A DNA stretch of 64,000 nt. It comes from Punctularia strigosozonata HHB-11173 SS5. Taxonomy: Eukaryota; Basidiomycota; Agaricomycetes; Corticiales; Punctulariaceae. A program made the translations under genes and the position numbers. Positions 28,726-60,569 of this stretch are shown here, in pieces. How positions within the stretch are numbered: position 1 is the first letter of the stretch; each line of letters starts with the position of its first letter. The DNA lies in the NCBI RefSeq assembly GCF_000264995.1, contig NW_006767437.1, positions 1,484,659 through 1,548,658 of the forward strand. The letters run 5' to 3'. The notes beneath the pieces were generated by a model. It was not told where the DNA came from and ran no database searches. It saw nothing but the letters and a program-made list of their open reading frames with translations.

Positions 28726-30629
28726 TCAGATGGCCTTGGGCTTCAGCTTGACGAGCTGGTCACCGAACGGCATGCTGAGCGGCGTCCCGAACGTCGCGAG
28801 GTTCTGGCGGCAGACGGGCTTGTCCATGCCCGCGGTCTGGTGCGGAAGGAAGCGAGACAGGCCGGTGAGGCCGGCGTGCTCGATGTCGAACGCGTGCAGG
28901 AGCCAGATCACGACGCTCTTGATCTCGAACGACGCGAGGTAGCGGCCGGGGCACTGTTAAAACGCGACGGTGAGGAAGAGCGCGGAGGTGCGGGCTGCGA
29001 GGAAGAGGTGACTCACGACGGTCGTGCCGAATCCGAAGGGAACCATGAACCCGGACTTGCTCTCGTCGATCTCGCCGACGTCCTTGCCGTCGACGGAGAC
29101 GAACCGGTCCGGGCGGAACGTGTGCGGGTCCTTGAACGTGTCCTCGCGGAAGTGGGTCGGGCGCATGTACAGGATGATGTTGTCGCCCTTCTGGACGACG
29201 ACGGTCTTGTCCGGCTCGTCGTCGGTGCCCACGGGGAGGAGCATGTCCGTCTCCGCGCGGCGGACGAACATCTGCTTGCCGTGGAAGCGGGTCATCTCCT
29301 TGAACACGCTGTTCAGCAGCGGCAGGTCGCGGTCGAGCGTCTCGAGGTCGTTGAGCATGTCCGCGAACGTCACCGGGCGCTCGACGCCGACGTCACCCTC
29401 GGACTTGGCCACGACGATGGTAGGCGTGCGCGCGCGGAACCCTTGCCACGCGCGCTCGATCTCGGCGGAGAGCTGCGCGTACAGTCCGGTGTGGGCGAGG
29501 ATGCGGGACACGATCCAGAACGAGCCGAGACCGATGTTATCGCCGGCGAACATGTAGAGGTTGACCATCTTCGCAGCGTCGTGCATGTCCATGTCCGGCT
29601 GCTGGTCGATCACCTTGGCAAGGATCTTCATGAAGATCGGCCCGTCGTGGGCTTTGGGGTCGTCTGTCTTCAGGTGCTCGAGCAGCAGCTTATACGTCTC
29701 CTTCCACAGGTGATCGCGACCTACCGTAATACCATGAGCGCCCTATATCGACATGTAAGTGAGAGAGACTCACCCTTAATACCGGCGCCCGCGAGGATCT
29801 TTGGCATGCCAGAGAAGAGGACGGGAAATGCGTCGTGGAACTCGTTGTGCGACTTCCAGAACGGCGTGCCGGCGTAGTTCCTACCGAGAGCCGCCTTGGA
29901 GAAGGCGTTGTAGCTGCAGACAACACATCAGATAGGATCATAATGGCTAAAGGTTGTCTGCGTACATGACGGGGAGGAAGACGTCGGCAAAGCCGATGAC
30001 CTTGCCGTTCGCAAGTTCATCTTTCGTGAAACCAGCCTTGAGTTCCTCAACACCGTTCTGGAATATTTCGTTGAAGCATGCTACAGTAGGCTTGACACTC
30101 CACTTCGTGGTGTCCCTAACGTGAGCGTGAGAAATCCGCACCGCACTTCAACAAGTTCGTTGGCGAACCTGGAGAGTGTCTTGAAAGCGACAGCGTTCGC
30201 GGTCTCTTGAGCTGCAGCTTCCTTCGAGATGTCAAAGATGGCTTGCAGGGAGTCGAACTCGACGTTGCGGATTGAAATGTCACGAGGCCGACGCAGCGCC
30301 CACTTGATGGGGTCCCGGTGAACGATGTACAAAAACCGAACGCCGATAACGTCGACAAAGAAAGCGGGACCGTAACGGCGTCTAACAACGACGTTGTCAG
30401 CCTCGAAGAAGATCTTTCTGGAACTGGACGGCACTTACGCATTCTTAAGCAGGAAACCGTCCGTATCGAGGCCCATGCTCAGCGCACTGCCGATCCATGG
30501 GATCCAGTACGGGGCCACCTTCGGGCGTCCTGGCTCCTTCGGCTGGCGTCGGTGCTGGGCATAGAGCAGGCCGGTGAAGACGACCAGGGCGGTCAGCGTC
30601 AGGGAGGGGGGGAGCCCAAGGAACGACAT
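28726..30629 (-). CDS. Cytochrome P450 (cluster P450-1), CYP7/8-like
   Basis: Start ATG 30629 with an N-terminal membrane anchor (SLTLTALVVFTGLLYA) and a proline-rich hinge leading to APYWIPWIGSAL. Six or so exons. K-helix ExxR is in NSVFKEMTRF, then FRPDRFV as the PERF-like motif, and the heme loop PFGFGTTVV joined across an intron to CPGRYLASFE, giving FxxGxxxCxG with the Cys ligand. The I-helix reads FAGDNIGLGSFW instead of AGxD/ET, so the usual acid–threonine pair is altered. The anchor places it on the ER with a reductase partner. It is divergent from P450-2 with 290 bases between starts. A diterpene oxidation is inferred from context. Confidence 0.87.
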
Positions 30630-30919
30630 GGTCTATAGAAAGTGGCGGGAGCGAATCAGCAGACCCGGTGGCCTTTTAGAAGCTATCATCGGGGCCGGGA
30701 GCCAACGAGAAACGCGATATAGGCAGTGTCAGCATGGGCGAATGACATCGCATGCGGACGTCGCAAGCCAAAACGGGCTTGATATGTGGCTGTGCATGTT
30801 TCCGTTTCGGGCGGTGGTACGGACCCATACCGGCTGGGTGTGCGGGATGGAGGCAGTCATCAACGGTGGGGTTTTATATCTCAGCGGGCGATGGTCGACT
30901 CCCATTCGCATCGCGCGCC
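30630..30919. promoter_or_regulatory. Shared divergent promoter region, P450-1 / P450-2
   Basis: The 290 bases lie between the start codons of two divergent P450 genes. A TATA-like 'ttttatatc' occurs about 45 bases before the plus-strand start. The arrangement suggests joint control; no binding site is proven. Confidence 0.5.
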
Positions 30920-33034
30920 ATGTCGTCCCAGACTCTGCCTCCCCCCCTGGCGTCGGCCGTCAACGCCGTCACCAGCCTCCCCGTCTGGGTCAGCGTCCCC
31001 GCGGGCGTCTGGCTCATCTACCGCCTGGCGCTTTGGCTCGTCACCCCCAAGCCGCTTCCCGGTATCCCCCACTACCCCGTTAGACCGTTTGGAGACCTTG
31101 GACGCGTACTCGCGCACGTCCGCGAAACCGGGTTCCGGTCGACTTGGTTCGGCATCGTCGCCAGGGACCTGGGCCCTATCGGGCAGGTTCAGATGGGACC
31201 TTCGACGAAGATTATCGTCCTGAGCGACATTCAGGAGACGGAGGACATTCTCCTCCGGCGAACCAAGGAGTTTGACCGATCCGACGACATGATCTCTCGG
31301 TAAGTTCGCGATCCACGAGTGCAGCCAGTCTTGAATGCTGACTTCGCCGTCCCGCAGTTTCGACCAGTTCATCCCGCATGGACAAATCGCGTTGAAGACG
31401 GGTGAGCGCTCCAATATTCGCGATGCAGCATCCGTACCGACCCATTCCATGCAGACACCGAGTTCAAGAACCACCGCCGGTTCTTGACCCCTGCCATGAC
31501 CCAGAAATACCTCTCGGCCATGACCCCTGGCATGTCGTGGAACGCGCGCGAGCTGTATCGTTTCTGGGACAAGAAGCGCAACTACTTGAGGGGCGAAGCC
31601 TTTGACCCGACCGTCGACTTCGAGATTTCGATCACCGTAAATTTAGTGCACCTACGCCATGACGTCACCGCTCACCCATCTAAATATAGGACACGCTCTC
31701 TGAGCTCACTTTCGGACAATCCTTCGGACTCGTCTCTCAGCAGGTCAGTTTCATACGCGGTGCCCCGACTCAATGTACTGATCAGCCTGCAGAGGAAATG
31801 GGCAGAGCAGAAGGTGTCAGAACTGAAGGCGCAAGGGATCGAGCCCACCCCGGAGAACATCGTCGGCCCCACCAGTGACATCCACGAGGCGAACAACCTT
31901 CTCTTGAAGGTAAATCATCCTTATCTTTCGACTTCGACTGGTGGCTGAGATCTCTCGCAGTACGCCGGCAAGACCATCAACTCCCTCTTCCCCCGCTACT
32001 ACCACTTCTTCGTCCGCCGCCGCGCGGACTACCGAAAGGCGAAGACTACCGTCTGGAAGTTCCTCGCCGAGAAGATCACGGAGGCGCGGATCAAGGCCGA
32101 AACGAGCGATGTCGAAAACGCCAACTGCGTCGTGGACCTCATCGCCGGTCTCGAACGCCAGGAATCCAATGCGAACATCAAAATGCCCCTCGCGGAGTTC
32201 CAGGACGAGCTCTGGACGTACATGATCGGCGGCACCGAGACCACCGCGGTCGCCCTCCGCTGGGTCGTGAAACTGCTCGCCGCTCACCCGGAGAAGCAGC
32301 GGAAGCTGCACGACGAGCTCGTCAACGCCGGCATCCCCTCCGCCCTCGACGAGGACGCCCCGCTCACGACCTTCGCCGACGTCAACTCGGACAAGACCCC
32401 CTACCTCGACGCCGTCGCCAACGAGATCCTCCGCTTCTCCCGCCTCGCCAACCTCACCACCCGCGAGAGTACGTCCCTCCCCTCTCCCGTCCTCTCTCTT
32501 CACCCTCAGCTCACGTGTACACCCACAGCCCTGACCGACACCGTTATCCTCGGCCATCACATCCCCAAGGGCACCACCATCCTCTTCACCATCACCGGCA
32601 CCTCCTTCTCCGAGACGTCCAAGGATCGCGCGGCGCAGGACGCGCTCGCGAACGTCCGCTCCAAGTCGTCCGTCCGCCGCTTCGGCTACTGGGGCGACGA
32701 CGCGGAGCAGTTCGTGCCCGAGCGCTGGATCGACGCCGACGGCAAATTCGACGCCAAAGCCGGCCCCAACCTCGCGTTCTCCACCGGCCCGCGCGGCTGC
32801 TACGGCCAGAAACTCGCGGTATGCTCGCTACTGCGGTTGGTTGTACTATACGACGCGTGTTGCTCATATGACCGCATCCAGATGTTGGACCTCAAGCTGT
32901 ACCTCGCCATTCTGAGCGCGACCTTCTTCTTGGACAAGGTCCCGGGGCACCTCGACAAGTGGGACATCACGGAGGGCCTGACGCTGTCCCCGAAGTACAG
33001 TCACGTCGTTGTCAAGCGTTGGGACGAGGTCTAA
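30920..33034 (+). CDS. Cytochrome P450 (cluster P450-2), CYP4/86-like fold
   Basis: Start ATG 30920. An N-terminal hydrophobic segment (LPVWVSVPAGVWLIYRLALWL) leads to KPLPGIPHYP. All P450 landmarks are standard: I-helix MIGGTETTAVALRW, K-helix ANEILRFSRL, VPERWIDADG, and the heme loop FSTGPRGCYGQKLA. About eight exons with introns of 50–70 bases; one intron splits the region after the ExxR helix (after NLTTRE), another follows the heme loop. The C-terminus reads LTLSPKYSHVVVKRW. The complete acid–Thr pair and FxxGxRxCxG suggest an ordinary hydroxylase. It faces P450-1 across a 290-base promoter region. Confidence 0.88.
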
Positions 33035-33502: not shown

Positions 33503-35038
33503 TCACTGCGGCACGATACCGCCCTTGACCATGTTCCATCCCAGCTGCTCATAGGTCCACCCGAACACGGTACCATCATCGGATAAGGTGTGCACGACAG
33601 AGATTGACTTGTGCATCCCCGGCTTCTTGTGGATCGCGTTCACGGCAGCCATGTCGTCCTCGGATAGTTTAAGAAGCTGTAACGGTTTGCTCAGTCATTC
33701 AAATCAGGTCTGTCGAAAGAACTAGGAATCGACTCGTTGGGGGGGTGAGCGCACCTGGAGGTTAGCTTTCATCCTGTCCTCGTTCTCGGTCTTTGGGATA
33801 ACAGCGGTACCGCGCTGCACTGCCCAGCTCAACAGCACCTGGGCGGGGGTAGCGTTGTGCTTCTCGGCGACCGAGGTGATCGTAGGCTCGGCGAGCAAGA
33901 GCGGGTTCGATTGGCCTGAGAAGTGCGTGTATGAGCAAGAATCGAGATATATGCAAGCGAAAGATGTACCGAGAGGAGAGTAGGCGACGAGAAGGATCCC
34001 CTTTGAGTCACAGTACTCCTTCAACTCGTTCTCGGGCAAACAAGGGTGCATCTCGACCTGGTTAACCGCAGGGACGACGGTCGAGTTTTTGATCAGGTGG
34101 TCCAGTGTCTTGATGGAGAAGTTGGAGACACCGATGCTCTTAACCCTCCCTAAACCACAATATTGTCAAGGCTCACGCGACGCGTCGCGATCGTCTATCA
34201 GGCACCAGGCACTCACCGGTCGCCAGCAGTTTCTCCATTTCTTTCCAAGTCTCGACGTACGTTGGGCTCTCCTCCGGTTGAACGGGGGCTGCTCGGATGG
34301 TAAGGCACGTTCCATAATAGGGTACCAGGGCACAGCGACCTACGATCGAACCAGTTAGTGCCCTTGATTACGGCCTGAGGCCAGTGCATGAGATATCTAT
34401 CACACAGCGTTTCAGAAGGTGCTGTGCACATATCAGAGCGGCGACGTACAGGTCAATGTATTCGGTGTCGAGTCTCTTCAGTGACGCCTCGAAAGCCTCC
34501 TGGACTTTGTGATGTTCGTTGTTCCTGTTCATTATTTGGTCATGTCGATGGAAAAATCAATGGCTTAACTCACGCACCATAGTTTGGTGGCAACATAGAG
34601 CTCTTTCCGCGGAATGCCTGACTCCTTCAACGCCTTTCCGAGGTTTTCCTCATTGGCTACATAACGCGTGAGCCGATGCGGTGGTATATGCATTGGACAT
34701 ACCAGAGATGGACGCCTAAAATAGCTTTCCAGTCAATGCACAGGTCAATGCGGGGGGTTTCACTTGCTCACCGTGTCAAAATGGCGATAGCCGTGCTGTG
34801 TGGCATGTCTTGTCACTCGCATGAGACGCAGTAGACTCGGAAGCCTCTCACCTTTAGCGACTTCCTGACCATCTCTTCGACGCGATCGCCTCCTCCTTGC
34901 GAGTGCATTGAACACCTAAAGTGGGGGCGATGAATGATTGTGACGATCTGAGTCGCGACCGAGCATCGCATACCCCATGCCGATAGCAGGGATCGTCGTG
35001 CCATTGTTCAGCGTGAACGTAGGGACTGTGGACGCCAT
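33503..35038 (-). CDS. Aldo-keto reductase
   Basis: Start ATG 35038 ([20 protein letters not shown]). Exons rebuild the catalytic tetrad of the AKR barrel: Asp and Tyr in GYRHFDTASIYGNEENLG, Lys in ELYVATKLW, and His in [11 protein letters not shown]. Later come [39 protein letters not shown], and the NADPH-binding block [15 protein letters not shown]. The C-terminus ends [16 protein letters not shown]. At least nine introns, several near 50–60 bases, making it one of the most intron-rich genes here. AKRs reduce aldehydes and ketones with NADPH; in this setting reduction of a diterpene ketone or aldehyde made by a P450 is the likely role. No AKR is part of the known pleuromutilin set. Confidence 0.85.
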
Positions 35039-35374: not shown

Positions 35375-37924
35375 TTACACCCTCGTGACCACCAGCGGCA
35401 TCTCCACCACTAGCTCGCCGTTCTTGTCGATGGCGGGGACCATCACCATTTGCATGCGCTTGTGTATCGGTTTCGTTCCATACGGGGTGAACTTGAAGTT
35501 CCTGATGAGCTCGAAGAGCATGGCTTGCGACTCGAGAATGCTGGCAGAATACGTTGAGTCGAGACATCGTTCCGAGCATCATGAGCACTCACAGGAAACG
35601 CCAGCTGAACGATGCGTAGCAATGTCGAAGTCAGTCAATCAGTCCCACACGAACCGCTACGAATACACATACCCCAAACACGCCCTATTCACAGAAAGGT
35701 TAGAAACATCGAAAAATATGGGATGCCAATCAGACTCACTTTGGTCCGGCGATAAAGTTGAAGAGGCCAGAGTAGACGCTGGGTGCCAGCTTCGCGTTCG
35801 GGTTCCAGCCAGGGCCACCTCCCTCCTTCATCCACCGATCGACGTTGAACTTCCCCGCGTCATCTCCCCACACCTCTTCAGAGTAGTTGTACGAAACGAT
35901 ATCCGCGTAGACGATGGTGCCCTTCTCAACGGTAATCTCGTTGACGGTACGGCCGTCCGCCAGAGTCAAAGGCTGCGATAGGCGCAGCACTGTGTCGGAC
36001 GCCGCTTGCTTCTCGTTGAAGTGGACGACAGGGTAAAATCGCATGACCTCCTGAAGAATGACATGCGTTTAGGGTTTCATACAAACGGGACGGCAAGCGG
36101 GTACTCGCCTTGATGAACGCATCGAAAAGCGGCATATCCTTGCCGGAGAAGATGTTCGCGTCTTCCTCGGCGTCATACTGGGATGTATGCGCGAGAATCT
36201 CCTCCCGGACTCGTTCCTGAAGGGACTGGTCGTGCGCAAGCTGATACAGAGCCCAGGACATGCTGTACGGATGTGAGGTCGTGGCAAAAAGAGACAGAGG
36301 CAGACGACATACAAAGCAGCGGAGGAACCTTCGATATCACGCATAACGTTAGCGCAAGCTCCAGATCAATAAGTGCCCTATATGACGCTCACCATGTCCT
36401 GCGAACAAGCTGCAACGCGGCATAAGCATATAATCCTGAAGCTGCATTGAAGAGCATACTCACATAGACGTGATCTGGGCCGTCATGTCGTTCATCGACA
36501 AACGAATCTTCGCATCGTTGGATAAGTTGGCTTTCACTGCGATAATGTCATCGTACCAAGATCAAGCTAAAGGCTGGACCGGGCTTACGCATCATGGTCA
36601 AGGCATCGTTACCGGCACCTTCCAAGTCCACGCTGGTGGCGCCGTCCTGAATGTCCTTGAGACGCTCCTGGATCAAGGTACTCGCGACCTGGGTGATGTG
36701 CAACGTTGGACAGATCCGTTTGAAGGAAGTGAAGGCAAGGTTCTTACATCGTGCGCTCGGGACAGAGACTGCACAACAACTTGCATGAGCTTGTTAGGGA
36801 ACAAGGTGAGGATGGAGATCAGCCACGCCGGGCTGTAGCGAATGAAAATAGAAGCAGCGGTTTCTTCGGCGCCCATGGCATCACTGATACGACTATGATC
36901 AACCCCTCAGTCATCGTGGACACGCCTATGAGCACTTACAGAACACCCTTGTACGCGTCTGCGAGATCTGAGATGCTCTCTCCGCCCTGCATCTTGTTCA
37001 CCGCTCCGAGTTTCGTGCCGAACGCCGCGAGACCGATCATGTCCAGAGCGGACGCGCCTAGCCAGCTTTGTCATCCGTCAGAAACATCGCATCTTACCGA
37101 GGGGTCAAGCTTCTTACTCGAAGACATCAATGACAGCTGCCTGTTTTTCCTCGCGGTCGACAAGACTACCCCAAGCATCGACGAGCTGAGTACCGAGTCA
37201 GTCTCGTCCTTATATTTGGTGAAGAAACGAGACATACCGCTAACGCGCCGTGTCTGAAGCGAGGAAGCAAAGCGCGAACGTTGCTAGCATTGAATGCAGG
37301 CTGCAAGGTATCAGCATAAATGCACAGTTTCCCGCAGAAGAAATATTGCAACTCGCCTGCATGACGCGCTTGATGCGATAGTGCGCCTCGCCCTCAGACA
37401 AGATGATACCGCCCTTGCCAACCAACTTCTCGCCTAAGGCGGTCATAGAGGGCGGCCTGTGGAACGTCGCGTTCGTGTCGTAGATCTTCCACAATGCCGT
37501 AGGATCCGAGATGAACAAGCCGTCGCCCTGTGCCAGTGATAGGGAATGTCAGACCGTCGCGTTCGAATGAACGACCGTACGGAAACCACGTACGGCGAAA
37601 TACGGGCCCTTGATCTTGAGCACGGTATTGTTGTGGTGCTCCTTCCTCCAGTCCAAGACGCGGGATCCGGCTCCCGTCGTCGACAGCTCCAACATGTTTC
37701 CAGCCAAAATCGATGAGGATTCCGGTCCCGGGATGAGGTCCATGATGGAGGACCGGCGGCGGTAACGGGCGACAATAGCGCGAAGTGCATAGATGAATAC
37801 GCTGCCGTAACGTCAGCTCGCCTCGCGAGAAAAGGCAACACGGAATTGCATACAATACTATCGCTGCCCGACGCGTGATGAGCCCGAACGCGTCCTGCGT
37901 CCCATCTGGCTGTGCGACCGACAT
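35375..37924 (-). CDS. Cytochrome P450 (cluster P450-3), heme loop split over micro-exons
   Basis: Start ATG 37924. Exons give an N-terminal hydrophobic stretch, YRRRSSIMDLIPGPE, KIYDTNATFHRPPS, GGIILSEGEAHYRIKR (C-helix), LDMIGLAAFG, an I-helix LFAGHEGSSAALSMSW, K-helix end RFYPVVHF and FNVDRWMKEGG. The heme loop is assembled from three pieces: FNFIAGPK, a 12-base exon at 35673–35684 (ACLG), and a second 12-base exon at 35593–35604 (WRFL start), giving AGPKACLGWRF. The C-terminus is MQMVMVPAIDKNGELVVEM. The protein resembles fungal multi-step P450s of the CYP5144/CYP512 style, though the exact family is uncertain. It is tandem to the AKR gene. Confidence 0.83.
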
Positions 37925-38550: not shown

Positions 38551-39706
38551 TTAGTCCGCGCCGGCCTTCTTCATGGCCTCGATGTTCCAGTCCCACACCT
38601 TCTTGGCCAGCGCATCGTCGCCGGCAAGCGCGTGCGGCAGCTTGGGCTCGATCTTCGCCAGAGGGACAAGGTAGGAGCCGCTCTGAGCTGCGGTGAGCGT
38701 CGGCGAGGTGCCAGCGAACAACTGGGTCAAGGCCCCGTATTCGACCGGCTTGAACACCGTGCGCTGGGTACGTGTCAGATGGATGTCAATATACCGCATC
38801 ACAGAGGAAAAGGTATTGATCTTACGTTGAGAATCCACATGACAGGCTTGGGAATGCCCAAGTGATGGGTGAGGTTGCTTTGAACCGGCCCCGGGTGAGG
38901 GCCAAACGACCAGACGCCCTGGTCAGTGTAGCGCTTGGCCAGCTCGCGGGTCCAGAGAAGGTCGCCGAGCTTGCTGTGGCCGTAGCAAGCCGAGTGCGAA
39001 GCGCCGGCACCTACGGTCGGGTCATCGAGCGGGATTCCGGTCTTGGGCGCCTGACCGGCACCGCTGGAACAGGTGTTGATGATACGGACCGTTCCCGGGG
39101 GAGACGTCTTGGCGGTCTCAAGGAGAACAGGCAGCAAGTGGTAGGTGAAGACGAAGGGGCCAAAGACGTTCGTCGCCCATTGCTGAAGAGCGAGGTTAGT
39201 CACTGAAAGCACGGGTTGTCTGCATACAACGTACGAGCTCGTAGCCGTCAGCCGACTTGCTACCAGCCGGAACACCCATGATTCCGCCATTGTTGTAGAG
39301 CTACCCAATGCGTGAGAAACCGCGGAGAATTCGTCCGAAAACACTGCGAAACTCACCAAGTGCAAGCTGCTCTCGCGCCTACTCGACAGCGCTCAGCAAT
39401 GGTCAGGTCGTAGTCAGGCGGCCACACTCACGACTTGAAGTCCTCAGCAGCAGCCTTCGCCTTCTTCGCCTCGCTCAGGTCGAGCTTAAGGAACTCGACC
39501 GTGCCCTTCTTGGTCGAAGGGTCAGCGGCATGGATCTCGTCAATCGCCTGGCGAGCCTTCTCCTCCGAGCGCGCCGCCAGGTAGACCTTGGCGCCCTTCG
39601 AGAGCAGGACCTTGACGGTCTGCTTGCCGATACCGGAATTGCCTCCGGTGACGATGGCGATGCGCCCGGTGAGGTCAGGGATGTCGGCCTCAGAGAAAGG
39701 AGCCAT
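38551..39706 (-). CDS. Short-chain dehydrogenase/reductase
   Basis: Start ATG 39706. The Rossmann nucleotide loop is GRIAIVTGGNSGIGKQT; VYLAARSEEKA suggests NADP(H) preference by its Arg after the second strand. Small exons carry LYNNGGIMGVPAG (NNAG variant). The catalytic Ser lies in IINTCSSGAGQAP and the YxxxK pair in HSACYGHSKLGDLLW. About 320 residues, normal for retinol-dehydrogenase-like SDRs. An SDR is also part of the pleuromutilin cluster, where it oxidises a hydroxyl to a ketone; a like role is inferred here. Divergent from GGPP synthase across 372 bases. Confidence 0.87.
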
Positions 39707-40078: not shown

Positions 40079-41383
40079 ATGGCCGTCAGCGTCATGAGCT
40101 CAGTCAACGGCATGTCTAATGGCGTATCCGGGCTCCTCTCAAGATTATTCACCCGTAAACCCTCAGTGGATCTGTCGAGGTTGGACCACGTCCAACTTCC
40201 CCCTGTCTCAGCGACACTTTCTACTGACAAGTCGGAGATCACTAAGAACGACGAGGTTAGCAACGCAGAGCTCTTCGCGAAAGCCATAGCTAACTTCTTA
40301 ATACAGGGCAAACTTCTCGAACCTTTCTCGTACTACCGCGAGGTTCTCTCGGGCAAGGGTCTTCGCAAGGCTCTGCTCCAGGCTTTCAACTACCACTTGA
40401 ACCTGCCTCAGACGTGGGTCGATGGCATTGTCGCTATCATCGAGGACCTGCACAATTCGTCACTACTGTAAGACCCATCCTTATCTGTCGCTCTCACTCG
40501 CTGACCGACGACGCAGAATCGACGACATCGAGGATGAGTCGCCGCTCCGCCGCGGCTCCCCGACCGCGCACATCAAGTTCGGCGTGGCACCAACAATCAA
40601 CTCCGCCAATTACGTCTACTTCTTGGTGATGGAAAAAATAACCACTCTCGCTCGCGCGCACGCCAGCGGCACGGACTTCGACACGGCCACTGCTCGCATG
40701 GTCAGCGCGTACGTTGAGGAGATGCTCGAGCTGCACCGCGGCCAAGGGATGGAGATCTGGTGGCGGACGAACCGGGTCTGCCCCACGGTCGACGAGTACC
40801 TCGTGATGATCGAGCGAAGTTAGCGCCCTTTCCTCGCGCCCAGAGTTTAATGCTGACATATGTAAAAACTCTCAGAGACGGCGGGTTTGCTCCGTTTGGG
40901 CGTTCGGTTGCTGCAATGCCACCCGGACGCGAAGACTGACCTCCCGCTCGCGTCGATATCGGAGCAGATTGGCGTGTTCTACCAGCTCCGGGACGACTAC
41001 ATCAACCTAGCGTCTACCAGCTACAGCACCCAGAAGGGTTTCGCTGAGGATATCAGCGAGGGAAAGTACTCCTTCCCCATGATCCACTCTTTGATGGTCG
41101 CGCCCGATAGCGGTCTTAAAGGTATGTCTTCCAGAACGCGGTGATGGAGATCAAGGCTGACGTGCGATAAATAGAAATCCTTGACAAGAGGCCGGAGGAC
41201 ATCCCCGAGAAGCAGCGCGCGATCGAAATTATGCGCCGGACGCACTCGTTTGAGGCCAGCGTGCAGTGCCTTCAGGAGGTCGCCGACCGCCTAAAGGCGC
41301 AAATCAAGGCTCTCGGCGGCAGCCCGGGCCTTGAAGCCTTCATGAACCAGCTCGGTGTCGACAAGATCGACGCGGGGCCATGA
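40079..41383 (+). CDS. Geranylgeranyl diphosphate synthase
   Basis: Start ATG 40079. Four exons. The first aspartate-rich motif lies in LLIDDIEDESPLRRG and the second in FYQLRDDYINLAST; KTAGLL and GKYSFPMIHSL are also conserved. About 375 residues, normal for fungal type-III GGPPS. It condenses IPP with an allylic diphosphate to the C20 precursor GGPP in the presence of Mg. A GGPPS beside a diterpene cyclase is usually a pathway-dedicated copy that raises GGPP supply rather than the housekeeping enzyme. The N-terminus has a 60-residue variable extension with no clear targeting signal. Confidence 0.92.
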
Positions 41384-42125: not shown

Positions 42126-44148
42126 TCACGCCAAATCCCACTTCTTCTTGATGAGGTCAGCGCCTCGCTCCTGCCACCAAATCGAAAAAAGGTTCAGTCC
42201 TTCGTTCGAATCGTTAGGTAATATTCATTACTTACCGCAACGATATATATGGGAACTTGGGTATGGGCAGTGGATACGAAGGGCTATCAACAGAGTTCAA
42301 AAATCTCTGCGCAAGTAACAGAACATACTCCTCTCACCAGATCGCTTCCATCAATAATACGCAGCCCTTGAACGCCTTTGACCGTTAGGTCCGGATCCAC
42401 GCAACCTGTCGTCGCGTTCCGAGCGGTCATCTGGCATGAACTCACTGCGTGATAAATCTGTGATCATGAGCCGCGATAAGCGTCACAGGTAAGAGTAACT
42501 AGTCACAGTGCGGGCGTTTGCTTTCGCAAACGCAAGTAGCTCGGCGTCAGTGGAAGCGTTCGCAAATGGACCAAACTCCGCTATCGTGTAGCCCTTGCAC
42601 GCCGGCGCCGTCTCGACGAATCGCTGGGCGGCCTTGATAGCGTACACCATAACTTGAGCATCGAACGTAGTTCCGAGGCGATTTGGGTTTATGAGTGGAG
42701 CCTGGAAGGGATTGGTGGAGTTGATACTAATGGTACCATGGTACCACCTGGATTACAGAAGTAGCTACAAATGAACACTGTCGATCAGGGTTGCCCATTT
42801 GACGACCTAACAAACCACGGTACCTGAGGTGTGTTGAAGGTACCCGCGGCAAGGACGATCTCCTTCGCGCCGTGACGTTGTACCCAGAACCTTGGGTGAT
42901 CATTGTAAGCACGGTAAACACAAAGCAGTGTGTGGCTTACCGTCAGCACTCGACGCAAACTCGACGGAGTCGAATACGGGCTGCCCAAATTCTCGATTGT
43001 TCGAAGTCAATCGTGTCACACGATTGACTTCGGTAGCATGAGCGTGTATCAGAACGCATAGATTGGGTTGAGCCGCAAAGTCGTCATTGAGGTATGCGGT
43101 CGCCGCACTGCTACGAGTGCCGTTTCCGATTGTAGCCTGAATCCAAGCTACCCGATGACAGTCAGCTGCGGAAGCGAATATCGGTGCATTGTGTGATGGG
43201 TTTACCTATTCCCGATGGATCACCACAGTTAACATCCAAGTTATACGGGAACTCAGAAGGAAGTTCTTCCGTTGTTTGTATGACGCGATGAGTGGACGGC
43301 CAGAAGTAACTGGTCAAGCTAACTTGCAGGGGACCGGCGTCAGAGTGGAACGCAGGATCATACCGCGGATCGAAACGTGACGGGCTGGGGGGTATCAGAT
43401 GCTCGTTCTGTGGATGCGACAACGATAAGCCCCATAGTATTCTACTAACATACTTGGAAAGTAAGTGACGGGCCTTGCGTATATACAGTTGTATGCCTTC
43501 CCAAGACCAGCCCGGATCACCAGTGATCCCCGCGTATTTATTCCAGTCATCGTCAGAACCCCTTGTGTACGCCATCGAATCTATTCCAATCAGTATAGGT
43601 CTTGGGCATTTACTATGGTATCTGGCTTACTGATCGAGCTACTTCCTCCTAGTAACTTCCCTCGTCCATACGTGACCGAACAGTTGTTCAAACCAGGCTG
43701 CGGAACCGTCGTGTAGTTGCAATCATACTGGGAGCCCCACAACCGAGGAGTGAGGAAAGGGACCTCGGAGTTTAAAACATTCCAATTGCTACAGTAATCG
43801 GCTCTTCGTCTTGGACATGTTCGTAATTTTGGGATTAACTCACGAAAGCCCGGCTTCTAGGACTAGCACCGACACTCGGGGATCTTCGGACAACCTGATT
43901 GAGAGCATGCTACGTCCCGTTTGTGATATAGATAAGAACACTTACCTATTGGTAACTACAAGCCCCGAGGTTCCTCCTGTAACTTCATGTTTAGCTCGAA
44001 CTACCGACTTGAACGTGTTACCTCGAATGCGACGAGCCTCACCGCCAATAATCACGAAGTCACAGTTCTTCTGGGGTAGGCTTGATACATCATCATAGAC
44101 CGCAGCGAGGGACGTCGAAAACAGAAGAAAGCTGCACAGGAACAGCAT
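42126..44148 (-). pseudogene. GMC-type FAD alcohol oxidase relic with internal deletion
   Basis: The 5' half reads well from ATG 44148: a signal peptide (MLFLCSFLLFSTSLAA), FVIIGGGTSGLVVTNR across an intron, YDCNYTTVPQPGLNN, YGRGKLLGGSSSIS, MAYTRGSDDDWNKYAG and KEIVLAAGTFNTPQ. The 3' half has INPNRLGTTFDAQVMV, YHAVSSCQM with the catalytic His, and AHTQVPIYIV with the second. Between NTPQ (about 42835) and ISINSTNPFQAP (about 42700) roughly 200 residues usual for the family are missing, and just before KEIVL the frame shifts by one base. The gene therefore cannot make a whole enzyme. It was probably an aryl-alcohol-oxidase-like cluster or neighbour gene now being lost. Confidence 0.75.
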
Positions 44149-44260
44149 ACTGAATGGCTGCGAACGTATAGCACACTCCAGGGGTAGTATTCTGTTCGAG
44201 GTCCAACACTCTGCTTATGAGCTCTCCAGCATGGAAGGCAGTATACTAGCATGGGAACAA

Positions 44261-47796: not shown

Positions 47797-49225
47797 TTAA
47801 TGGCTCTCGGAGTCCCGGCGGGGTGGTGCTGGTTTTAATCTGCGCCCTTGGGATGCTGAACTACGAAACGTCGAATCAGCACTTCTGGAAAGCCAGTCAC
47901 GAGGGGGAGTGCATGAAGCTATCGCACCTACGATAGGCCACCGCGATTGGCCCAACCCACGCCGGCATCGGTGCGTCTGCAGCGTTTTGGAGCTCGAGAA
48001 GAACAGGCCGCAAAGGTCGCAAACCCATTCACATTCCTTCCCGTGCTGCACGACTTCGTGGCGGAGAAGATCGTGTCGTCGGGAGAAAGTCTCCTTGCAA
48101 GTTTCGCATTGCAAAGACTTCGGGGCCCGGGGTTTGTGCGTCTGCATATGCGTCTTACGGGTGTATCTATTGCGTGAGAGACGATCAGCGGGAGCGGTCT
48201 CCGGCTGAAACGCCGGAACCACGCACTCAGAGGTAAACATCCGCGTGCACGTTTTCTCGAGGCAACGGAACCGGCGGGCGCGCTTGACGCCTCCACGCGA
48301 TGAGTCCGGAGACGCCGACCCATCAGCGGCTGATAGGCTACCTGCTGAGTCCTCGGGGCTGCTGTGCTCCATGTGGCAGCCAATAGACTCGGGGGATGTG
48401 AGGGCAGCGGGACTGCTCCCGACCATCGAGGGCGAGGTGAGGACATCTTGGAAGAGACCGTTCGACGCGTCCATAGTGTGGTCCATGAAGCCGTCCGCGA
48501 GTGCTGCTGCGTCACCTATGTGCGAAATGAGCCATCGTCGGGATCGCCTTGACAACAGCCTTGCCATTGAGCGCGGGCTCCTCACCCATTGGTAAACCCA
48601 AGTCCATCCCGAGAATGGCGCTCAGGTCAAGGGGCGTGTCGAAGATGGAGCCGGAGCCGAACGGGTCGGTGGCGCCTTGTAAGTGGGGGTGGTGCGGCAT
48701 GGTCGACATCTGCGGCTCCGGTAAAGGTGGTACTGTACGATCCTCTTATATGAGTACGCTTCCATAAACGCTGGGCAACGCTGACAAACCTTCGAAAGCG
48801 TTCAGTTGAGTCTCGGGAAGCGGGGTCCGCAGCGGCGTTGCCGTCGTAGACTCCCCCGAAGACGAAGGCGATACCGAAATGTCCCGCTGGCATTCTTCGC
48901 ACGTTCATCAGGATGGGACAGTCCTGACAAAGGAAGAGGCTATAGCCTCCTTACCATCGGTGAAGTCATTGTTATCCAGCTCCTGAGCGGAGGAAACCGA
49001 GGCGAAGATACGAAGCCCGTATCCGTTCCTGCCGTCCGTCTCCTGCAAATGGATGCTCGCGTTGGGGTTGACGAACCAGTCCGGAGGGTTCGGCCTCGAG
49101 AGCCGGGCGATGTCGAAGGTGAAGCGGCCCCGCTGGGCATCGCGCTCGACGACGATCTGAGAAGCGGTGAAGAGATGGATTGGGAAGCTGAGGGTCATGT
49201 TGTCGGATGTCCTGAAGGCGGCCAT
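47797..49225 (-). CDS. C2H2 zinc-finger protein, possible cluster regulator
   Basis: Start ATG 49225. The first exons give an unrecognised N-terminal domain (FTFDIARLSRPNPPDWFV; IFASVSSAQELDNND; AGHFGIAFVFGGVYD). A Ser/Pro-rich middle (SPSMVGSSPAALTSPES) resembles an activation region. Three C2H2 fingers close the protein: FRCLEKTCTRMFTSE joined across an intron to YTRKTHMQTH; LQCETCKETFSRRHDLLRHE; and WVCDLCGLFFSSSKTLQTH. Four introns or so; those near 48700 are approximate. Location inside the cluster and DNA-binding type make a pathway-specific transcription factor plausible, but this is inference. Confidence 0.68.
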
Positions 49226-52200: not shown

Positions 52201-52259
52201 CATAATATACATACACAAAATGCCCGTGATATAATGTGCCAGCCATTAATTCCATGTGC
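49226..52259. other. 3-kb gene-free stretch inside the cluster
   Basis: No family motif or coherent splice model on either strand. Open frames (for example 49615–50148 plus and 50967–51461 minus) lack conserved patterns. It may hold a decayed gene or the zinc-finger gene's promoter. Confidence 0.5.
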
Positions 52260-55200
52260 TTATGTCCCTGTGGAGTGTGCAAACGTTGAGGCGAGTCCGT
52301 GGAGACGAAGATAAAGTTTGACGAACCTGAACTCGTAGATCTCCGTGTACATCTCGCTGGCATTATAGAACAGCCGAACAACCTGGGGGGTGGTTATCAG
52401 ACAAAACCGAAAATAGAGACGGCCGCAATTTATGCTCACCTCGTGCAGACGCTTGCCGGCCTGGGGGCCGACGGTGCGCTGCGCCACGCGAAGGAGCTCG
52501 TCGAACGAGAGGTTGAGGCACTTGCGCTCGTACTCGGAGATGGCTCGGAGCTCCGCCTTGAGCTGCTTCTCGTCCTTGCCCTTCGCCCGGCCCTCGAACT
52601 CGGGGAAGAATACCGCGTTCAGGTTCTTTTCCTCCCGATCGCGTTTCATCGAGCCCCAGTCGTTGAAGATGCGGCAGATGACGGACAGGTGCGTGCTGCA
52701 GTCCTGGGCGATGTACTTGATCTCCGCCGTCGGGAAGTAGTCCTCGCGCTTGGAGACCTCCTTGCCCTTGTTCTGGCTGTGGCCAAGGAGGCAGGTGATG
52801 AACGCGAACGCGTACTGGGACGAGAGGTGGTCCGCCGCCGTCGAGCGCACCCACTTGAGGTAGGAGGAGCGCGGGGAGAGGAAGGGGTCGTACTCGGCCT
52901 GCGCCTGCAGCTTCACGTTGTCCTCGCATTGGGTCGTGTGCGCGTGGAGGTAGATCTTCATCTCCTTCCGGAGCTGTGCCTTGTCGTTCTCGCTTGCGAA
53001 CTCGATCCGTGGGTAGGTGAAGACGAAGTTGACGAAGTGGCCGAGGCGCGCGCGGATTTCGTCGTAGCCGGTGGGCTGCGCCTCGCCGTCGGCCTTCCCG
53101 GCGTTCTGCGGGATCGCGGGCGGGATGATGCCCTTCTCAATCCCGGCCATCATCTCATCGATGAGCGTTCGGAGGTAGGCGAGCGCGCCCTCGCCGTGCT
53201 TCTGCACGACGATGTCGAAAAACTCGTCGACCTGGAAGTTAACCATGGAGATGACGATCATGTCGAAGATCGTCTGCGCGCTCGCGTACGTCTCCTCCAT
53301 ACCGTTCGGGCCCGTCCAGGAGAAGGGCAGGTACTCGAAGTACGGGTCCTCCTTCATGCCCTGCCTGTCGAACGCGATGTGGTGCACCCTGCGAAGTTCG
53401 GGGAGGAAGAGGAAGGATTCAATGAGCCAGGCGTACATGCGCCACTGGGGGAAGCCCTGGTACATCGGCAGCCGCGAGTAGAACTTGGCGAAGCCCTTGA
53501 TCTTCTCCGCGGACACGTTCACGCCGGTATCGACCGACGCAGGCTCGTAAAGCGGCACGGGGATGTGCATCGCGGAGACGACGTAGCCATTGCAGACGTG
53601 CTCGACGCCGTAGCCGATCTTGCCGACCCAGATGTAATCCGCAGGGGCGATGTGGAGCTTCTCTATGGCGTTGACGGAGAGGAGGTACTCGCGCCCTTTG
53701 GCAACGGCGGCATTCACTTGGTCGCGGATGAGGTCAACGTAGGGGAGCGAGGCGAGGTTGGCGAGCGCGAGGATGGCGTAAGCGGTCTCCTCCCGGCTCT
53801 TGTTGACGCCCCAGGAGCCGTCCTCATGTTGTGATTGAAGGACACGAATGAGGATGCCGAAAAGGGTCAGAGGAATCTTTACAGTCAAGAGGTGCTCGGA
53901 GACTTCGGAGAACAAGCCTTGGCCGTGAAGGTAGAGAAGGCGGAGCAAGCCCTGAGAAGCGAGCATGGCAGGGTACCACTGCGATAGATGCTAAGATAAT
54001 CGGCGTCAGGGCCAAGTCTTGCATCTGAAACGATAGATGATCACTAACCCACTTGTCCTCGACGGGACCCTCGATTGTCCACCACTCCTCGGTGATGAAG
54101 GTCGCGGCCTTGATGACTTGGCTGGTAAAGTTTTTAGGCTCGGTAGAGCGGAGGAGCGCGATAAGGATGTTGCAGTTGGCGCTGAAACTGGGGTTGCGCT
54201 CGAACTGGAAGCACTGGAAGTGCGTCGGGAGCTCGAAAGTCTTGAGGAGGGCGTCGTAGGGGAACGGCTTCCCCAGGTAGGTAAGCGCCGTAAGCGCCTT
54301 GGCGGTGTCGTCGGAATCGGGGCCAACGTTAGCAGCTGCATCGATAGTATGAGTTGACCAGTTACATCGATGAAGCGGAATCAACACGTACCAAACCCGA
54401 TGATGCCCTTCTCTGCCGCGAGAGCATTGTAAAGCACGTCGCGAATGCGGGCGAGAGCGTCTTGATCGAGCTTAGCGAGGTCGAAGCCACTCTCGACGAG
54501 GTTGCAAACGGACTACAGCAACAGGATTATCAGTGGCCTGGTACCACAATTCAGCGTGAGCACATACCCAGGAGAACTCGAACACGGTCGTAGGCCAGAC
54601 GTTGCAGACGGCGCCGTAGCCGTACGATTTGCACTGCTCAATGACGTGCCTGAGGTACCCCTCGGCCGCCTCATCCCACTTGGACGCATACGTAAGGTAG
54701 GCGGCAGTGGAAGACGGCGACGCCATGAGGCTGCCGCCGCGGACGTGATGCGCGATGCGATCAAAGTCGATCTTGCCGACGAACGCCTCGAGCGAGTGGA
54801 GGACGGTGGTGTGGTGCTTGTACACGATTTCGATGTCGACCATGGAAAGCTTCTTCTCGCGTACAGCGAAGAGGTACTTGCGCTGTGGGAAGTCGAAGTC
54901 GAGCCCAAACGTCGCGAGCTGCTCGAACAGGCTCGGGACGATCATCTCGAGCGCGATCCGCTCCGTGCTCTTGACGTCCCAGGTCTGCAGCGCGGTGTTG
55001 AGGAAGGCAACGGCCTTCTCGGAGCGAGCCGCGATGTCGTTCTTGCCGCCATTCCAGGTGCTCTCGTGGTGCTTGAACGCAAGCAAGCACGCAAGGGTGT
55101 TGATCACGGCGTCCGCGACGGAGCCATCGCCGGGGAAGCTGCCGTCCTCCGCCTGCTGGTCGTAGATGAATTGGAAGGATTCAGGGAAAATCCATTGCTT

Positions 55201-55347
55201 CTGGCCGTCAATGGTCCGGGAGACGAGCGCGACCCAGGCGGTATCATAGATGCTGGCGCTCATCGTGCCGAGCCCGTACCGGTCATCGTACCGGGACGTG
55301 AGGCTGCGAAGGAGCGCGTTGGCGGAACCGTACCAGTCGGTGGACAT
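52260..55347 (-). CDS. Bifunctional class II/class I diterpene synthase (labdane-type)
   Basis: Start ATG 55347; five exons, about 950 residues, matching the length of fungal two-domain cyclases. The N-terminal half carries ASIYDTAWVALVSR, QQAEDGSFPGDGS, SSTAAYLTYASKWD and, near residue 300, GPDSDDTAKAL with the class II general-acid DxDD. The C-terminal half carries SWTGPNGMEET, the class I metal motif DEFFD (53214–53228; variant of DDxxD) and NDWGSMKRDREE (NSE-like Mg site). Thus one protein can protonate GGPP to a copalyl-type diphosphate and then ionise it. It resembles the pleuromutilin cyclase of Clitopilus in layout and scattered motifs, but differs widely. The last intron, 57 bases, is a multiple of three and is also open in frame. 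Confidence 0.93.
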
Positions 55348-56342
55348 CGTTGCGAATGGCGAATGGGAGCTTGATAGATCGGGGTCACAAGCATTTTAAA
55401 AAGACAATGTATGCGTCGATGGCTAGCGGCAGTCAGGAATACGTGAAGGGCGAATGCACGGAGTCGCGACGGGATTCAGTGCGGTTTGGCGAGCCGCCCA
55501 GTCCGGGAACGCCGCCATCGACCGGATATGGAAACCGACGGCGGATGGACGACTCGGCGCAGTCATATGGCGTCGCGGATTGGCTTTCGCTTTGTTTCCG
55601 GTGCTGCCGGACACCTAGAGGCAATGCAGCGGCGTATCCCATTGGGTGGTTGATATCCTCGGACTCGACAAATGCTGCGAGCCCGTTCAACTCGCAAGCC
55701 AGATGGTGAAATCAAAGTGAAAGCGCCGTGCGAACGGCAAGTTCGCGCAGGTGGCTGAAAGCACGTGCGCGAAACGCGGTCGCGTCGCGTCCGAGGCTAC
55801 GCGTCCATCCGTTCGTAGCGGCAGAAACCGCTTCGTCGTACGCATCTTCTGAAGATAACGAGATAAGTGTGGGTGCTGCGACTGAGGTGGCGCTACATGA
55901 CAGTGTGGGACAAGTACGGGACCGGACACATTGTTCTTTGATATCTCTAGTACTTATCGGCAGCATCCCCCAGGAACGTTGCCATCTCAGAGATTCTGGA
56001 ACAATTCGCTGTTTCAACCCAGGGCATAGCGTGCGCCTACGTAAGCAACAAATCTTGCTGCAGCTTCCATTCGACCCTGAACATTGCCCGAAAAGTGATT
56101 CGTCTTGCATCATCCACCCGAAGCAATAATCTCACTCCCGGAAATCAACAGCATTTTACATTACAGCACGTTTACATTGACTACCTATACAGGTTGATCA
56201 ACGTATCCCGTTAAGGATTAACAGACAATTGAAATTGCGGTCGGGTTGAGATAGAATTGCGCGTATGGATGCAGTTTAAAGTCGTAGCCAAGAAGGAAAC
56301 ACATGGAATGTCGATAGAGGATGAGAGTACAGAAGAAATCAT
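55348..56342. other. Intergenic upstream of the cyclase
   Basis: About 1 kb holding the cyclase promoter and the 3' end of P450-4. No other feature recognised. Confidence 0.5.
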
Positions 56343-58295
56343 CTATGAGCGGCGAACGTAATCCATCAGCACCTGCTCCGCCGGCATGAACCGCTGCCAG
56401 TCGTTGCGGTTCACGGGCGGGTCCTGGGTGAGCGGGTTGCCCTTCCCGTCCAGAGGCTGGAACTCGAAGGTCGCGAGCAGCGACGCCTAGAACAAGCAAG
56501 GCCGCCCGTCAGTTCGCCGTCGCCAGAAAATCGCGTAAACCAAAAGAAACACATACCACGATCGTCTTCATCTCGACCTTGGCCATCCGCATGCCGGTGC
56601 ACGGGAAGCGGGCGACGCCCCATCCCAAGAAGGGATACGCGAGCTTCTTCGCGTTCACGCCCTGCTCGTCGATCCACCGGTTGGGGTTCCACTTCTCCGC
56701 GTCGGGGTAGATGTCCTCGTTCAGGTGGGTGTCGTGGATGAAGTACGCGAGGAAGTCGCCGGTGTTGATGCGCTTGCCGTCGATCGTGACCGGGTCCTCG
56801 ATGTTGCGCCGGAGCGCGATGATGGCGAACACGAGCCGGATCGTCTCCTTGATGCAACGCTCGAGCGCCGGCATCTCGTTCTCCCACGCGTCGAGCTGGA
56901 TCTGCGTCACCTGTTCCGCGAGCGTGCCCGGGGCGCCCGTCGCGTGCGCTTGGGTCGTGATCTCGTTCATGACGAGGTCGTACTGGTCTTTGTGCAGGGT
57001 GAGCTATGAGGCGGACCGGTTAGGAAAAAAGAGCAACGCGTCTGAGCACCGAAGTAGGACTCACGTATACCCAGGTCCAGGCGGCCATCGCGGCGGTGTT
57101 GACCGATCCAGCGAAGAGGATCTTGAAGGTGTACTGGATGATGTCGCTGTCCTCGTCGCCCATGTCCATCTGGTACTGGATGGGGTCGTTTTCGCGGCGA
57201 CCCTCGCGGCGGCGGGCGGCAATGAGGTTGGAGATGATCTCCGCGAGCTCCTTCGTCGCGGCGGCGCTCTCGCGCTTTTGCTTCGTCGGCCACCAGTTGA
57301 CGAGGGTCGTGCTGTAAGCCAATCAGCTTCCGCACGGGTTCTACTATGGGAGACGATGCTTACAAATCCTCAGCTCCCTGTTCGATGCCAAGGTAGAGGG
57401 AGCGGACGTGCTTCAACAACTGAAGGGGACATTGAGACAAGGAAACAAATCCAGCACAAAGGCGCGTACCTTGGGATCATCTGCAATCTCGTTGCACACA
57501 AGGAGACGGCAGGTCAGCTTGAACACGAACTGGTTAAATCGGACAGTCAGCACGCGGATATTCGGACAAGGGCGAGTCCTTTCTTACGGTGTAGATCGCA
57601 TCGAACGGGTCGACACGGCTCCTCTTGCCCCAGGTGTCGAACTCCTCGGAGATCTCACGGAAGATGGTGGGGAGGACTGAGGCGGAGTCAGCACGACTGC
57701 GTATACGAATGACGTTCGAGGCACCAACCATCGGTGATGTATTCTCTCCTGATGAAGTAGAGCAGACGCTCCTTCAGCTTTCCGTTGTCGGTCTCGATCC
57801 TCGCGCCAAGCTTGGAGGTAGTGGGGAAACCTCCACGCAGGAAGAGGTAGCCCTGGTACAAGCTCAAGTTCTTGTCACCGAAAAAGAGCTTGCGGCCCGT
57901 CTCTCCGTGCAAGACCTGTTCGCCGCGGTCAGATCGTGGTTCATTGCGCGAGTGAAGTCGGGCGGTCTCACGTTGACGGTGTAGCCAACGGTGTTGAACT
58001 CGTAGACGCCGCCCTTGAGCGGGTCTTTCTTCTCGCGGATCTGCTTCTTCTGCGCGTCCTTGAGGGTCTTGTCCATGAAGTCATGTCGGGCGGAGAAGAA
58101 ACCGAGCTGGCCGAGGAAGGGCGTCGAGCGCAGGACGGAGTCGGTGAACGCGTACTGGTAGGTGACGAACGCGGCGAGGAGCGCGCCGAGGCCGGAGACG
58201 ATGACGGTGCCCGGGGCGGACTCCCACTGGGACTGGAGGGGCGCGGCGACGCGCTGGACGGTCTCGCTGCTGTTGAGGTTGGCGAAGAGGGACAT
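56343..58295 (-). CDS. Cytochrome P450 (cluster P450-4), CYP51-like heme loop
   Basis: Start ATG 58295. N-terminal membrane segment TVIVSGLGALLAAFVTYQYA, then a CYP51-like stretch (PFLGQLGFFSARHDFM; FNTVGYTVN). A GTGAGA–ACAG intron joins this to VLHGETGRKLFFGDKNLS, restoring the frame. K-helix ERCIKETIRLVF, NPNRWIDEQG and heme loop PFLGWGVARFPCTGMRMA, with two residues more than usual between the Gly and Cys. I-helix FAGSVNTAAMAAW lacks the usual acidic residue. About nine exons. This is an unusual P450; the missing acid–alcohol pair may mean it does not do ordinary hydroxylation. Divergent from P450-5 across 363 bases. Confidence 0.82.
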
Positions 58296-58658
58296 GGCCG
58301 GAGACGTGGTCGGAGTAGGGGCCTCTCAGCCGGAGCGCATTAGATATGCACTTTTTATGAGCAACGGCGCCCATCTCGAGCATAGCGGTGGGGACCCCGG
58401 TGGGAACTCGATGGAGGCCAGCGTTGATTGCCAAGTCGGGACACCAACGTCCGCGTCCGATACACTCGGTTCCGCCCCCCACGGGCTCCCTAACCCTATG
58501 TAAGCGCGCCGCCACACCAAATGCTTTACCGGGGCGTCCGCACAACATGGCATAAGATGGCGATTGTCAGCCTCGATCGTCCATTAGCCTATCCACCGCG
58601 GCTGCTGCGACCGCGAGTACAAATCTTAAAGCATCCCAAACCTCGATCCAAGTAAGTA
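58296..58658. promoter_or_regulatory. Shared divergent promoter region, P450-4 / P450-5
   Basis: The 363 bases lie between two divergent start codons, the third such pair in the cluster. Likely carries shared control sites; none is identified with confidence. Confidence 0.5.
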
Positions 58659-60569
58659 ATGCCGGCCATCGACCTCCCCGCCGTCACGGTCGCCGTCGCC
58701 CTCCTGGGCCTTTCTGCATGGCTCAAGCTGAGGGCCCAGGGCGGCAATGGCCTCGCCGTTCGCCCTCCTTGGGCATGGGCGTGGATCCCCTGGGTCGGAA
58801 ATGCCTTCGACTACAAGAACGGGCCCGATACTTGGACGCGTAGCGTCGAGAAGAGACTCGGACCCGTCTTCCGCTCCAAAGTGTTGGGCAAACCCGTCAT
58901 ATTCTGCTTGCATGTAGGACCTCTCTCTGTGACCGCGTTTATTCGAAATATCCCTAACGTGTCTCACCCCAGAGGAAACTCATTGCCGAGATATTCAAAA
59001 ACCACAAGGATTTTTCCTTCACGCCCATTAGGACCGATGCGCATCACCGCGTGTTCGCTGTAAGCAAAGTTGCCGTTTCCGACGCTGAAGGCCAGCGTGC
59101 CATGTTTGCGGAGTTGTCCCGGTACGCGGCATCTTATTGTATGGAGTGCGCGTGGAGCGTGTCTCTGATCCTCCCTCCCTTTTGTGTCTCATCACAGCGT
59201 TCTCGCCAAGAAGGCGTTCGGTCCGATGGTCTTCCACATCTCGGCCAACATGGCGTCCCGCTTCGGCGCCCTGATCGACCAGATGACGCCCCTCGAGCGC
59301 CAGAACGGCAAACAATTCGAGCTCATGAAGCTCATCCCGCCCTTGTTGTACGTTCCAGTTCTCAAACCGCCAAATGGAGAAGTGCCTGATCGCGGTTCGC
59401 TCCAGTTACGCCGCGAGTGCTCAGGGCATGTTCGGCGACACATTCCCGGCCGACGAGATCTTCAAGTCGAACACCGACTTCGAGGATCAGTTTGGTGTGA
59501 GTCGTTACATCCACTCCAGAGGCCGGACCTGACGCGCTCATGCTTGCTATTTATAGCTTATGTACACCGGCCTGCCCTTCCCGTTCCTGGTCAGCCGGGG
59601 CGTCGCCGGGCGCGACCGCTGCATCGCGCGCGTCAAGGAGGCACTTGCCCAGTACGAGTCGGGCGAGGCGCAGCCGACCTACTTCATGCAGGTCATGTTC
59701 GACCTCCGCCACACCCTCGGCTGGTCCTCACAAGACCTCGCCGCCTACCTCCACTCCTACCTCTTCGCGCTCACCTCCAACACCATCTACGCCGCCTACT
59801 GGGTCACCGTCTACGTTTTCTCCAACCCGTGGCTCCTCCCCGACATCCGGGACGAAGTCGACCTCGCCCAGGCCAAGTTCTCGGCCGAGAACCCGAACCA
59901 GCACCCGAACGGGCTCTTCGAGCAGCTCGGCACGATGGACGTCGACTACCCGCTCCTCAACTCGATCATCAACGAGTCCCTCCGGCTCTGCTCGAACGGC
60001 ACGAGCGTGCGCGAGGTGATGAACGACGTCGTCGCCGAGGTCCCGCCCTCGGACGCGCACCCGGCGCCCAAGCCCGTCTTCTTCAAGAAGGGCGACATCA
60101 TCTACATGCCGAACCGGTACCACCACCTCAACCCGGATGAGTTCGAGGACGCGTTCCGCTTCCACCCCCGCCGCTTCATGGACGACAGCAGCGCGAAGAA
60201 GCTCAGGCAGGGCTTCTTCATGCCCTTCGGCGGAGGCGTCTCTGTCGTACGTGTCTCTCTCGCCGATACCCGTTCAGGATCGCAATCTGACAGAGCCCAC
60301 GTCTTCCCTCCTAGTGCACCGGCCGTCACCTCGCCCTCGCCGAGCTGAAGGCGCTGATCATCATCCTCATCCGCGCCTTCGACATCGACTACGCCGGCCT
60401 CATCGACGCGAACGGCAAGACCGTCCCGTCCTCCACCCTCCCGCTGGGCAAGAACGAGAAGTCGTACCCCGTCCCGCCGTACGCCAACGGCTCCGGCTCC
60501 GCCATCCTGCACCCGGAGGGCGACATGTTGGTGAAGATGAGGCCGCGTCCGGGAGGCACGCGCTGGTGA
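58659..60569 (+). CDS. Cytochrome P450 (cluster P450-5), CYP7/8-like
   Basis: Start ATG 58659 with a membrane anchor (DLPAVTVAVALLGLSAWL) and AWAWIPWVGNAFDY, the same pattern as P450-1 (APYWIPWIGSAL), so the two are likely related. K-helix NSIINESLRLCSNG, FHPRRFMDDSS, and heme loop MPFGGGVSV joined across an intron to CTGRHLALAELK. The I-helix LFALTSNTIYAAYW lacks AGx(D/E)T. C-terminus MRPRPGGTRW. About six exons. Its last 384 bases are duplicated at 16441–16812. Together with the divergent P450-4 it is the right end of the cluster. Confidence 0.87.

Follow-up and report, generated by a model that had tools for sequence, protein, structure and literature searches.

The 64,000-nucleotide stretch of the Punctularia strigosozonata HHB-11173 SS5 genome analyzed here (contig NW_006767437.1, positions 1,484,659 to 1,548,658; hereafter the window) contains, between positions 28726 and 60569, a set of neighboring genes around a bifunctional class II/class I diterpene cyclase, and it is this cluster, its relatives in other fungi and its candidate product that are considered below. 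P. strigosozonata is a wood-dwelling fungus. An ab initio, splice-aware gene finder was run over both strands of the window after damped codon-usage training on the window itself, on 20 stretches of the genome, each 10 kb long, and on eight short cytochrome P450 (P450) loci, and its models reproduce both outer coordinates of the cluster to the base, one being an end of P450-A and the other an end of P450-E. Between these two genes lie P450-B, an aldo-keto reductase (AKR), P450-C, a short-chain dehydrogenase/reductase (SDR), a geranylgeranyl diphosphate (GGPP) synthase, a C2H2 zinc-finger protein, the cyclase and P450-D. When the ten proteins were scanned, Pfam p450 was matched by all five P450 models, and Aldo_ket_red, adh_short, polyprenyl_synt and zf-C2H2 were matched by others, with no Pfam match for the cyclase; the gene models and domains together confirm the gene list of an earlier note on this DNA, which had placed a GGPP synthase, a two-domain diterpene synthase, five P450s, an SDR, an AKR and a C2H2 gene within 32 kb. 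The models are drafts, with one uncertain intron in P450-B and exons of 12-24 bases in P450-C and the AKR. None of the seven inter-gene gaps scanned holds a strongly coding frame, Rfam has no match in the window at gathering scores, and the NCBIfam matches in the window all fall far below their cut-offs. A search of the assembly for 5.8S rRNA was likewise negative.

The P450 density at the locus is far above that of the genome. Even if all 266 first-look candidates genome-wide, of which 92 were scored, were genes, only 0.25 P450s would be expected per 32 kb of the 33.6 Mb assembly, and the Poisson probability of at least five in 32 kb is about 7e-6 under a model that leaves tandem gene birth aside, so the clustering is not due to chance. 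The set of neighboring genes is genuine, and the fungus carrying it probably builds a heavily oxidized diterpene, in keeping with the earlier reading of a diterpenoid cluster comprising a GGPP synthase, a bifunctional cyclase and oxidases.

The locus and its core enzyme have been described before. Clusters of diterpene synthase (di-TPS), GGPP synthase and P450 genes were predicted in 2015 in P. strigosozonata and Serpula lacrymans (PMC4617483), with one GGPP synthase in the P. strigosozonata region and putative P450s numbering six in the text versus 3 in Table 2 (five versus 4 for Serpula), and horizontal transfer of the cluster with Serpula was suggested there. The three motif stretches printed for P. 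strigosozonata_a are identical to the window cyclase at 57/57 residues, and the corresponding Serpula stretches share 50/57 residues with P. strigosozonata_a. The cyclase lies at C5:1536904-1540005 on the assembly, and its end, 1540005 on contig 5, is the end printed for PunTC (scaffold_5:1536826-1540005), which the review PMC8594250 lists among four basidiomycete di-TPS genes functional in yeast; PunTC and SerTC are the yeast-expressed di-TPSs of Li et al. 2019, cited via that paper, and the scaffold, end coordinate and species agree, the reported work concerning the cyclase step only. By these sequence and coordinate matches the window locus is the cluster predicted in 2015 and its cyclase is PunTC; with the P450-E match described below, they place the window and the P. 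strigosozonata/S. lacrymans cluster at the same locus or among orthologous genes. Because the cluster was predicted in 2015 and PunTC was reported functional by others, the description of the locus as uncharacterized is only partly true, and the claim of novelty in the earlier note was wrong. What is new here is a more complete list of genes and a specific candidate for the product: for this cluster the main text of PMC4617483 names neither the SDR, the AKR nor a flavin adenine dinucleotide (FAD) oxidoreductase, all three of which are modeled here, and gives no product. Also new are a P450-D relative near a cyclase relative in Stygiomarasmius scandens, the class-I-only nature of the second cyclase copy listed in 2015, a possible change at the AKR catalytic tyrosine and flanking repeats.

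The bifunctional cyclase and its relatives

The PunTC gene occupies 52246..55347 on the minus strand and encodes 938 amino acids in a model with two splices corrected against homologs (exons 54568-55347, 54392-54512, 54049-54335, 52440-53990, 52327-52382 and 52246-52267). The Pfam, homology, PDB, genome-search, first motif and tree results were obtained with the uncorrected 949-amino-acid protein, the two splices having been corrected afterwards; the corrected reading frame is intact and ends in YEFRDISTWN, resembling the YELRDIST.. of relatives. The class II acid motif of DXDD type is DSDD at residue 307, and the class I metal motifs are DEFFD and NDWGSMKRD, of the DDXXD/DEXXE and NSE/DTE types as these are listed in PMC4617483. 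Across 98% of the query the protein has 34% identity with the bifunctional ent-kaurene synthase of Fusarium fujikuroi (P0082), with which it shares the class II plus class I architecture, though P0082 has DEYME where the window cyclase has DEFFD, and fungal proteins annotated as ent-kaurene synthases align with 97-98% of it. Residues 4-539 match PDB 9q3i and residues 8-534 match 8v0f, both copalyl diphosphate synthases. On its DXDD motif, metal motifs and full-length homology to a characterized member, the protein is classed by sequence as a fungal bifunctional (class I/II) diterpene synthase.

A genome search with the cyclase protein returned a single full-length copy, that in the window, so a kaurane made by P. 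strigosozonata should come from the PunTC cluster. A second, small copy at C12:471027-472559 (L036:4863-7243) is 58% identical to the cyclase and has the class I half with its motifs, the class II half being represented by a weak 36-residue match only, and it is, as judged from its alignment, class-I-only. This copy recovers, at about 471 kb, the too-small second P. strigosozonata locus printed in PMC4617483 (scaffold 12, 470791-472709). A peroxidase-like gene, assigned to its family by eye, lies beside it at L036:8087-9391.

The homology search with the cyclase gave 226 matches, and among the best 120 listed there was no P. strigosozonata protein and none named Serpula. A quick tree of 41 rows, the window cyclase and 40 of the 120 listed matches, places the window cyclase in a group of 16 rows (SH-aLRT 100) that stands apart from 25 ascomycete rows and is made up of the window cyclase, eleven rows with names of Agaricomycetes species and four others. 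One relative is S. scandens VKT23_009321, at 63% identity. Some agaric relatives seem to differ in their domains: by eye, P0003 (Mycena sanguinolenta) seems to have lost the class I motifs, and P0036, P0042, P0045, P0091 and P0098, at only 566-590 amino acids, look like proteins with a class II half alone; annotation error is possible in both cases.

Five dissimilar P450s and a conserved core

The five P450s are P450-A at 28726..30629 (minus strand, 541 amino acids, with ExxR and FGFGTTVCPG), P450-B at 30920..33034 (plus strand, 569 or 589 amino acids depending on the one intron), P450-C at 35375..37924 (minus strand, 567 amino acids, with many short introns), P450-D at 56343..58295 (minus strand, 517 amino acids) and P450-E at 58659..60569 (plus strand, 529 amino acids). 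All five keep ExxR and the heme-cysteine region, the latter starting with W in the P450-D variant. The longest alignment among them has 26.5% identity over 547 positions (A versus E), and by such comparison they are unlike each other and not recent tandem copies.

The conserved-core comparison covered the cyclase, P450-D and P450-E. Of the 5 matches to P450-D one is close, S. scandens VKT23_009312 (55% identical), whose locus tag is nine away from that of the cyclase relative VKT23_009321. Both S. scandens genes are listed with a longest contig of 1,074,579 bases, so the cyclase and P450-D look co-inherited. P450-E likewise has one close relative among 3 matches, Serpula lacrymans SERLA73DRAFT_176582 (66%), with no S. 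scandens protein among the three. Since each search scored the 8000 best word-sharing candidates, the small numbers of matches are no proof of rarity. That the best relatives of P450-D and P450-E occur in two cyclase-carrying fungi speaks for a common core from which genes have been lost, or to which they have been added, in different ways.

The combination of a cyclase of copalyl diphosphate synthase/ent-kaurene synthase type (34% identical to P0082), a GGPP synthase and several P450s, as in Fusarium, would also suit a pathway in which ent-kaurene is converted by P450s to gibberellin-type acids. None of the five P450s is significantly similar (best E 0.35), however, to the C-terminal part of P0102 from residue 901 onwards. 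P0102, a Fusarium fusion protein of a cyclase and a P450, served as the sole reference, and we assume its P450 part to be of gibberellin type. Gibberellins in other basidiomycetes are discussed in PMC4617483, but we regard a gibberellin-like pathway at this locus as highly improbable.

Accessory genes and flanking repeats

The remaining genes of the cluster include the GGPP synthase at 40079..41383 (plus strand, 381 amino acids, with DDIED and RDDY motifs), the SDR at 38551..39706 (minus strand, 306 amino acids), which retains both its cofactor motif (TGGNSGIG) and its Tyr-Lys motif (YGHSK), and the AKR at 33503..35038 (minus strand). The C2H2 zinc-finger protein at 47835..49225 (minus strand) is a possible regulator. 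A gene model with a domain match for a berberine-bridge-type FAD oxidoreductase at 24873..26737 (minus strand) is a possible further member of the cluster, and a C-terminal remnant of a GMC oxidoreductase lies inside the cluster at 42126-42752.

Repeats flank the cluster on both sides. A direct repeat 1.24 kb long has one copy at 60187..61426 (plus strand), comprising the 3' end of P450-E and downstream sequence, and another, 94% identical, at 16441..17669 (plus strand), in which the P450-E 3' fragment and downstream sequence form an incomplete gene. Further partial copies of this repeat lie to the right of the window at C5:1563668-1564312 and C5:1554532-1554820, and two other matches, both weak, were found on C1 when the genome was searched. 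Starting exactly at the repeat end, a long terminal repeat (LTR) retrotransposon with integrase domains extends from 61427 to L035:3405 in the next 10 kb, where its second LTR lies; the two LTRs are identical at 287/290 positions, and no matching target-site duplication was seen in the ten bases compared on either side. Beyond the retrotransposon there is a third, degenerate P450-E end, and L035:3503-5565 is 92% identical to window positions 20933-23010, which hold a FunK1-type kinase gene (PF17667). The leftmost part of the window (positions 1-935) contains overlapping direct repeats that are about 75-89% identical.

The GMC remnant, the partial P450-E copies and the LTR retrotransposon adjoining P450-E, together with the possible AKR tyrosine change considered below, could be taken to describe a decaying or silent locus that has lost some of its members and yields little or no product. 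The ExxR and heme-cysteine region kept by every one of the P450s speak against this, as do the intact cyclase frame and the report of a functional enzyme (PMC8594250), and we consider decay very unlikely.

A kaurane pathway as the probable product of the cluster

We think it rather probable that the P. strigosozonata cluster around PunTC makes a kaurane that is then oxidized by the P450s and other enzymes to phlebiakauranol and its aldehyde. As its family and motifs suggest, the cluster GGPP synthase would supply GGPP, which the class II half of PunTC (DSDD) would fold into a diphosphate of copalyl type. By homology, this intermediate would then be ionized by the class I half (DEFFD, NDxxSxxxD) and closed to a tetracyclic kaurane-type skeleton. 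The five unlike P450s would oxidize several carbons of the skeleton, the SDR and perhaps the AKR would adjust alcohol and carbonyl states, and the end products would be the highly oxygenated kauranes phlebiakauranol and its aldehyde; the skeleton, the order of the steps and the end product are what we infer. These two compounds have been isolated from Phlebia strigosozonata, an older name of Punctularia strigosozonata, and from Punctularia atropurpurascens. Given this source, the "unknown structure" that the earlier note assigned to the product may be too cautious.

Several points weigh against this assignment. The kaurane skeleton is predicted by homology, and the product of the cyclase cannot be read from the tree, because the basidiomycete group is separate from the ascomycete rows, some of which carry the annotation of aphidicolanol or phyllocladanol synthase; no product name was found for any member of the 16-row group in the tree annotations or the literature searched, and none for PunTC in that literature. 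The literature search found no paper with the word phlebiakauranol and, among the matches listed, none tying the species to kauranes or diterpenes such as phlebiakauranol, so that the phlebiakauranol link is one that we infer. At the locus itself, about 10.9 kb separates the GGPP synthase from the cyclase and contains the GMC remnant, a 388-amino-acid model without a Pfam match and the zinc finger. Active AKRs carry an Asp-Tyr-Lys-His tetrad, of which the AKR model retains Asp, Lys and His, and the best splice model reads DTASISANE where 4gac has CASVYGNE, replacing Tyr with Ser; this reading depends on a 13-base exon required to keep the frame, and on this model the AKR may have lost its catalytic tyrosine.

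The separate position of the basidiomycete cyclases in a group with no named product next to the 25 ascomycete rows would also fit a different labdane-related skeleton from the same cluster, such as a pimarane or a pleuromutilin-like rearranged tricycle, with an unknown polyoxidized diterpene as the product, in line with the earlier note. In the genome search, 0/5 matches of PF02458 and 0/3 of PF13813, the families to one of which we presume, by its TRI7-like label, that the pleuromutilin acetyltransferase Pl-atf belongs, fall inside the window, which with the result for the seven gaps scanned bears out the earlier statement that no acetyltransferase is visible. The pleuromutilin cluster of Clitopilus passeckerianus, as described in PMC4855138 and PMC5705593, comprises a GGPP synthase, a cyclase of about 950 amino acids that yields a tricyclic alcohol en route to pleuromutilin, three P450s, an SDR and an acetyltransferase. 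It shares with the window cluster an adjacent GGPP synthase, a cyclase of similar size, P450s and an SDR, and to this extent the proposed likeness to pleuromutilin stands at the level of gene classes, but it does not extend further, since the window cluster has five P450s rather than three (five Pfam p450 models) and an AKR (the Aldo_ket_red match), as had been noted, with no match to an acetyltransferase family. No protein named Clitopilus is among the 120 of 226 cyclase matches listed. The missing acetyltransferase match, the isolation of phlebiakauranol from the species and the finding of one full-length cyclase of this kind count against another skeleton, which we judge unlikely, and the oxidized kaurane phlebiakauranol is the product that we favor.

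We consider it possible, at slightly less than even odds, that the locus is the complete phlebiakauranol cluster and thus a basidiomycete route to polyoxidized kauranes with P450s of its own, whose core of the cyclase with P450-D or P450-E is distributed patchily in the Corticiales, Boletales and Agaricales. If true, such a patchy core would suggest that the cluster has been transferred from one order of mushrooms to another or has been lost several times. If the phlebiakauranol link is true, a product known since the 1970s gains its genes, and oxidation by five different P450s becomes testable stepwise with a cyclase whose activity in yeast has been reported. For comparison with pleuromutilin there would then be a second class I/II diterpenoid pathway from basidiomycetes.

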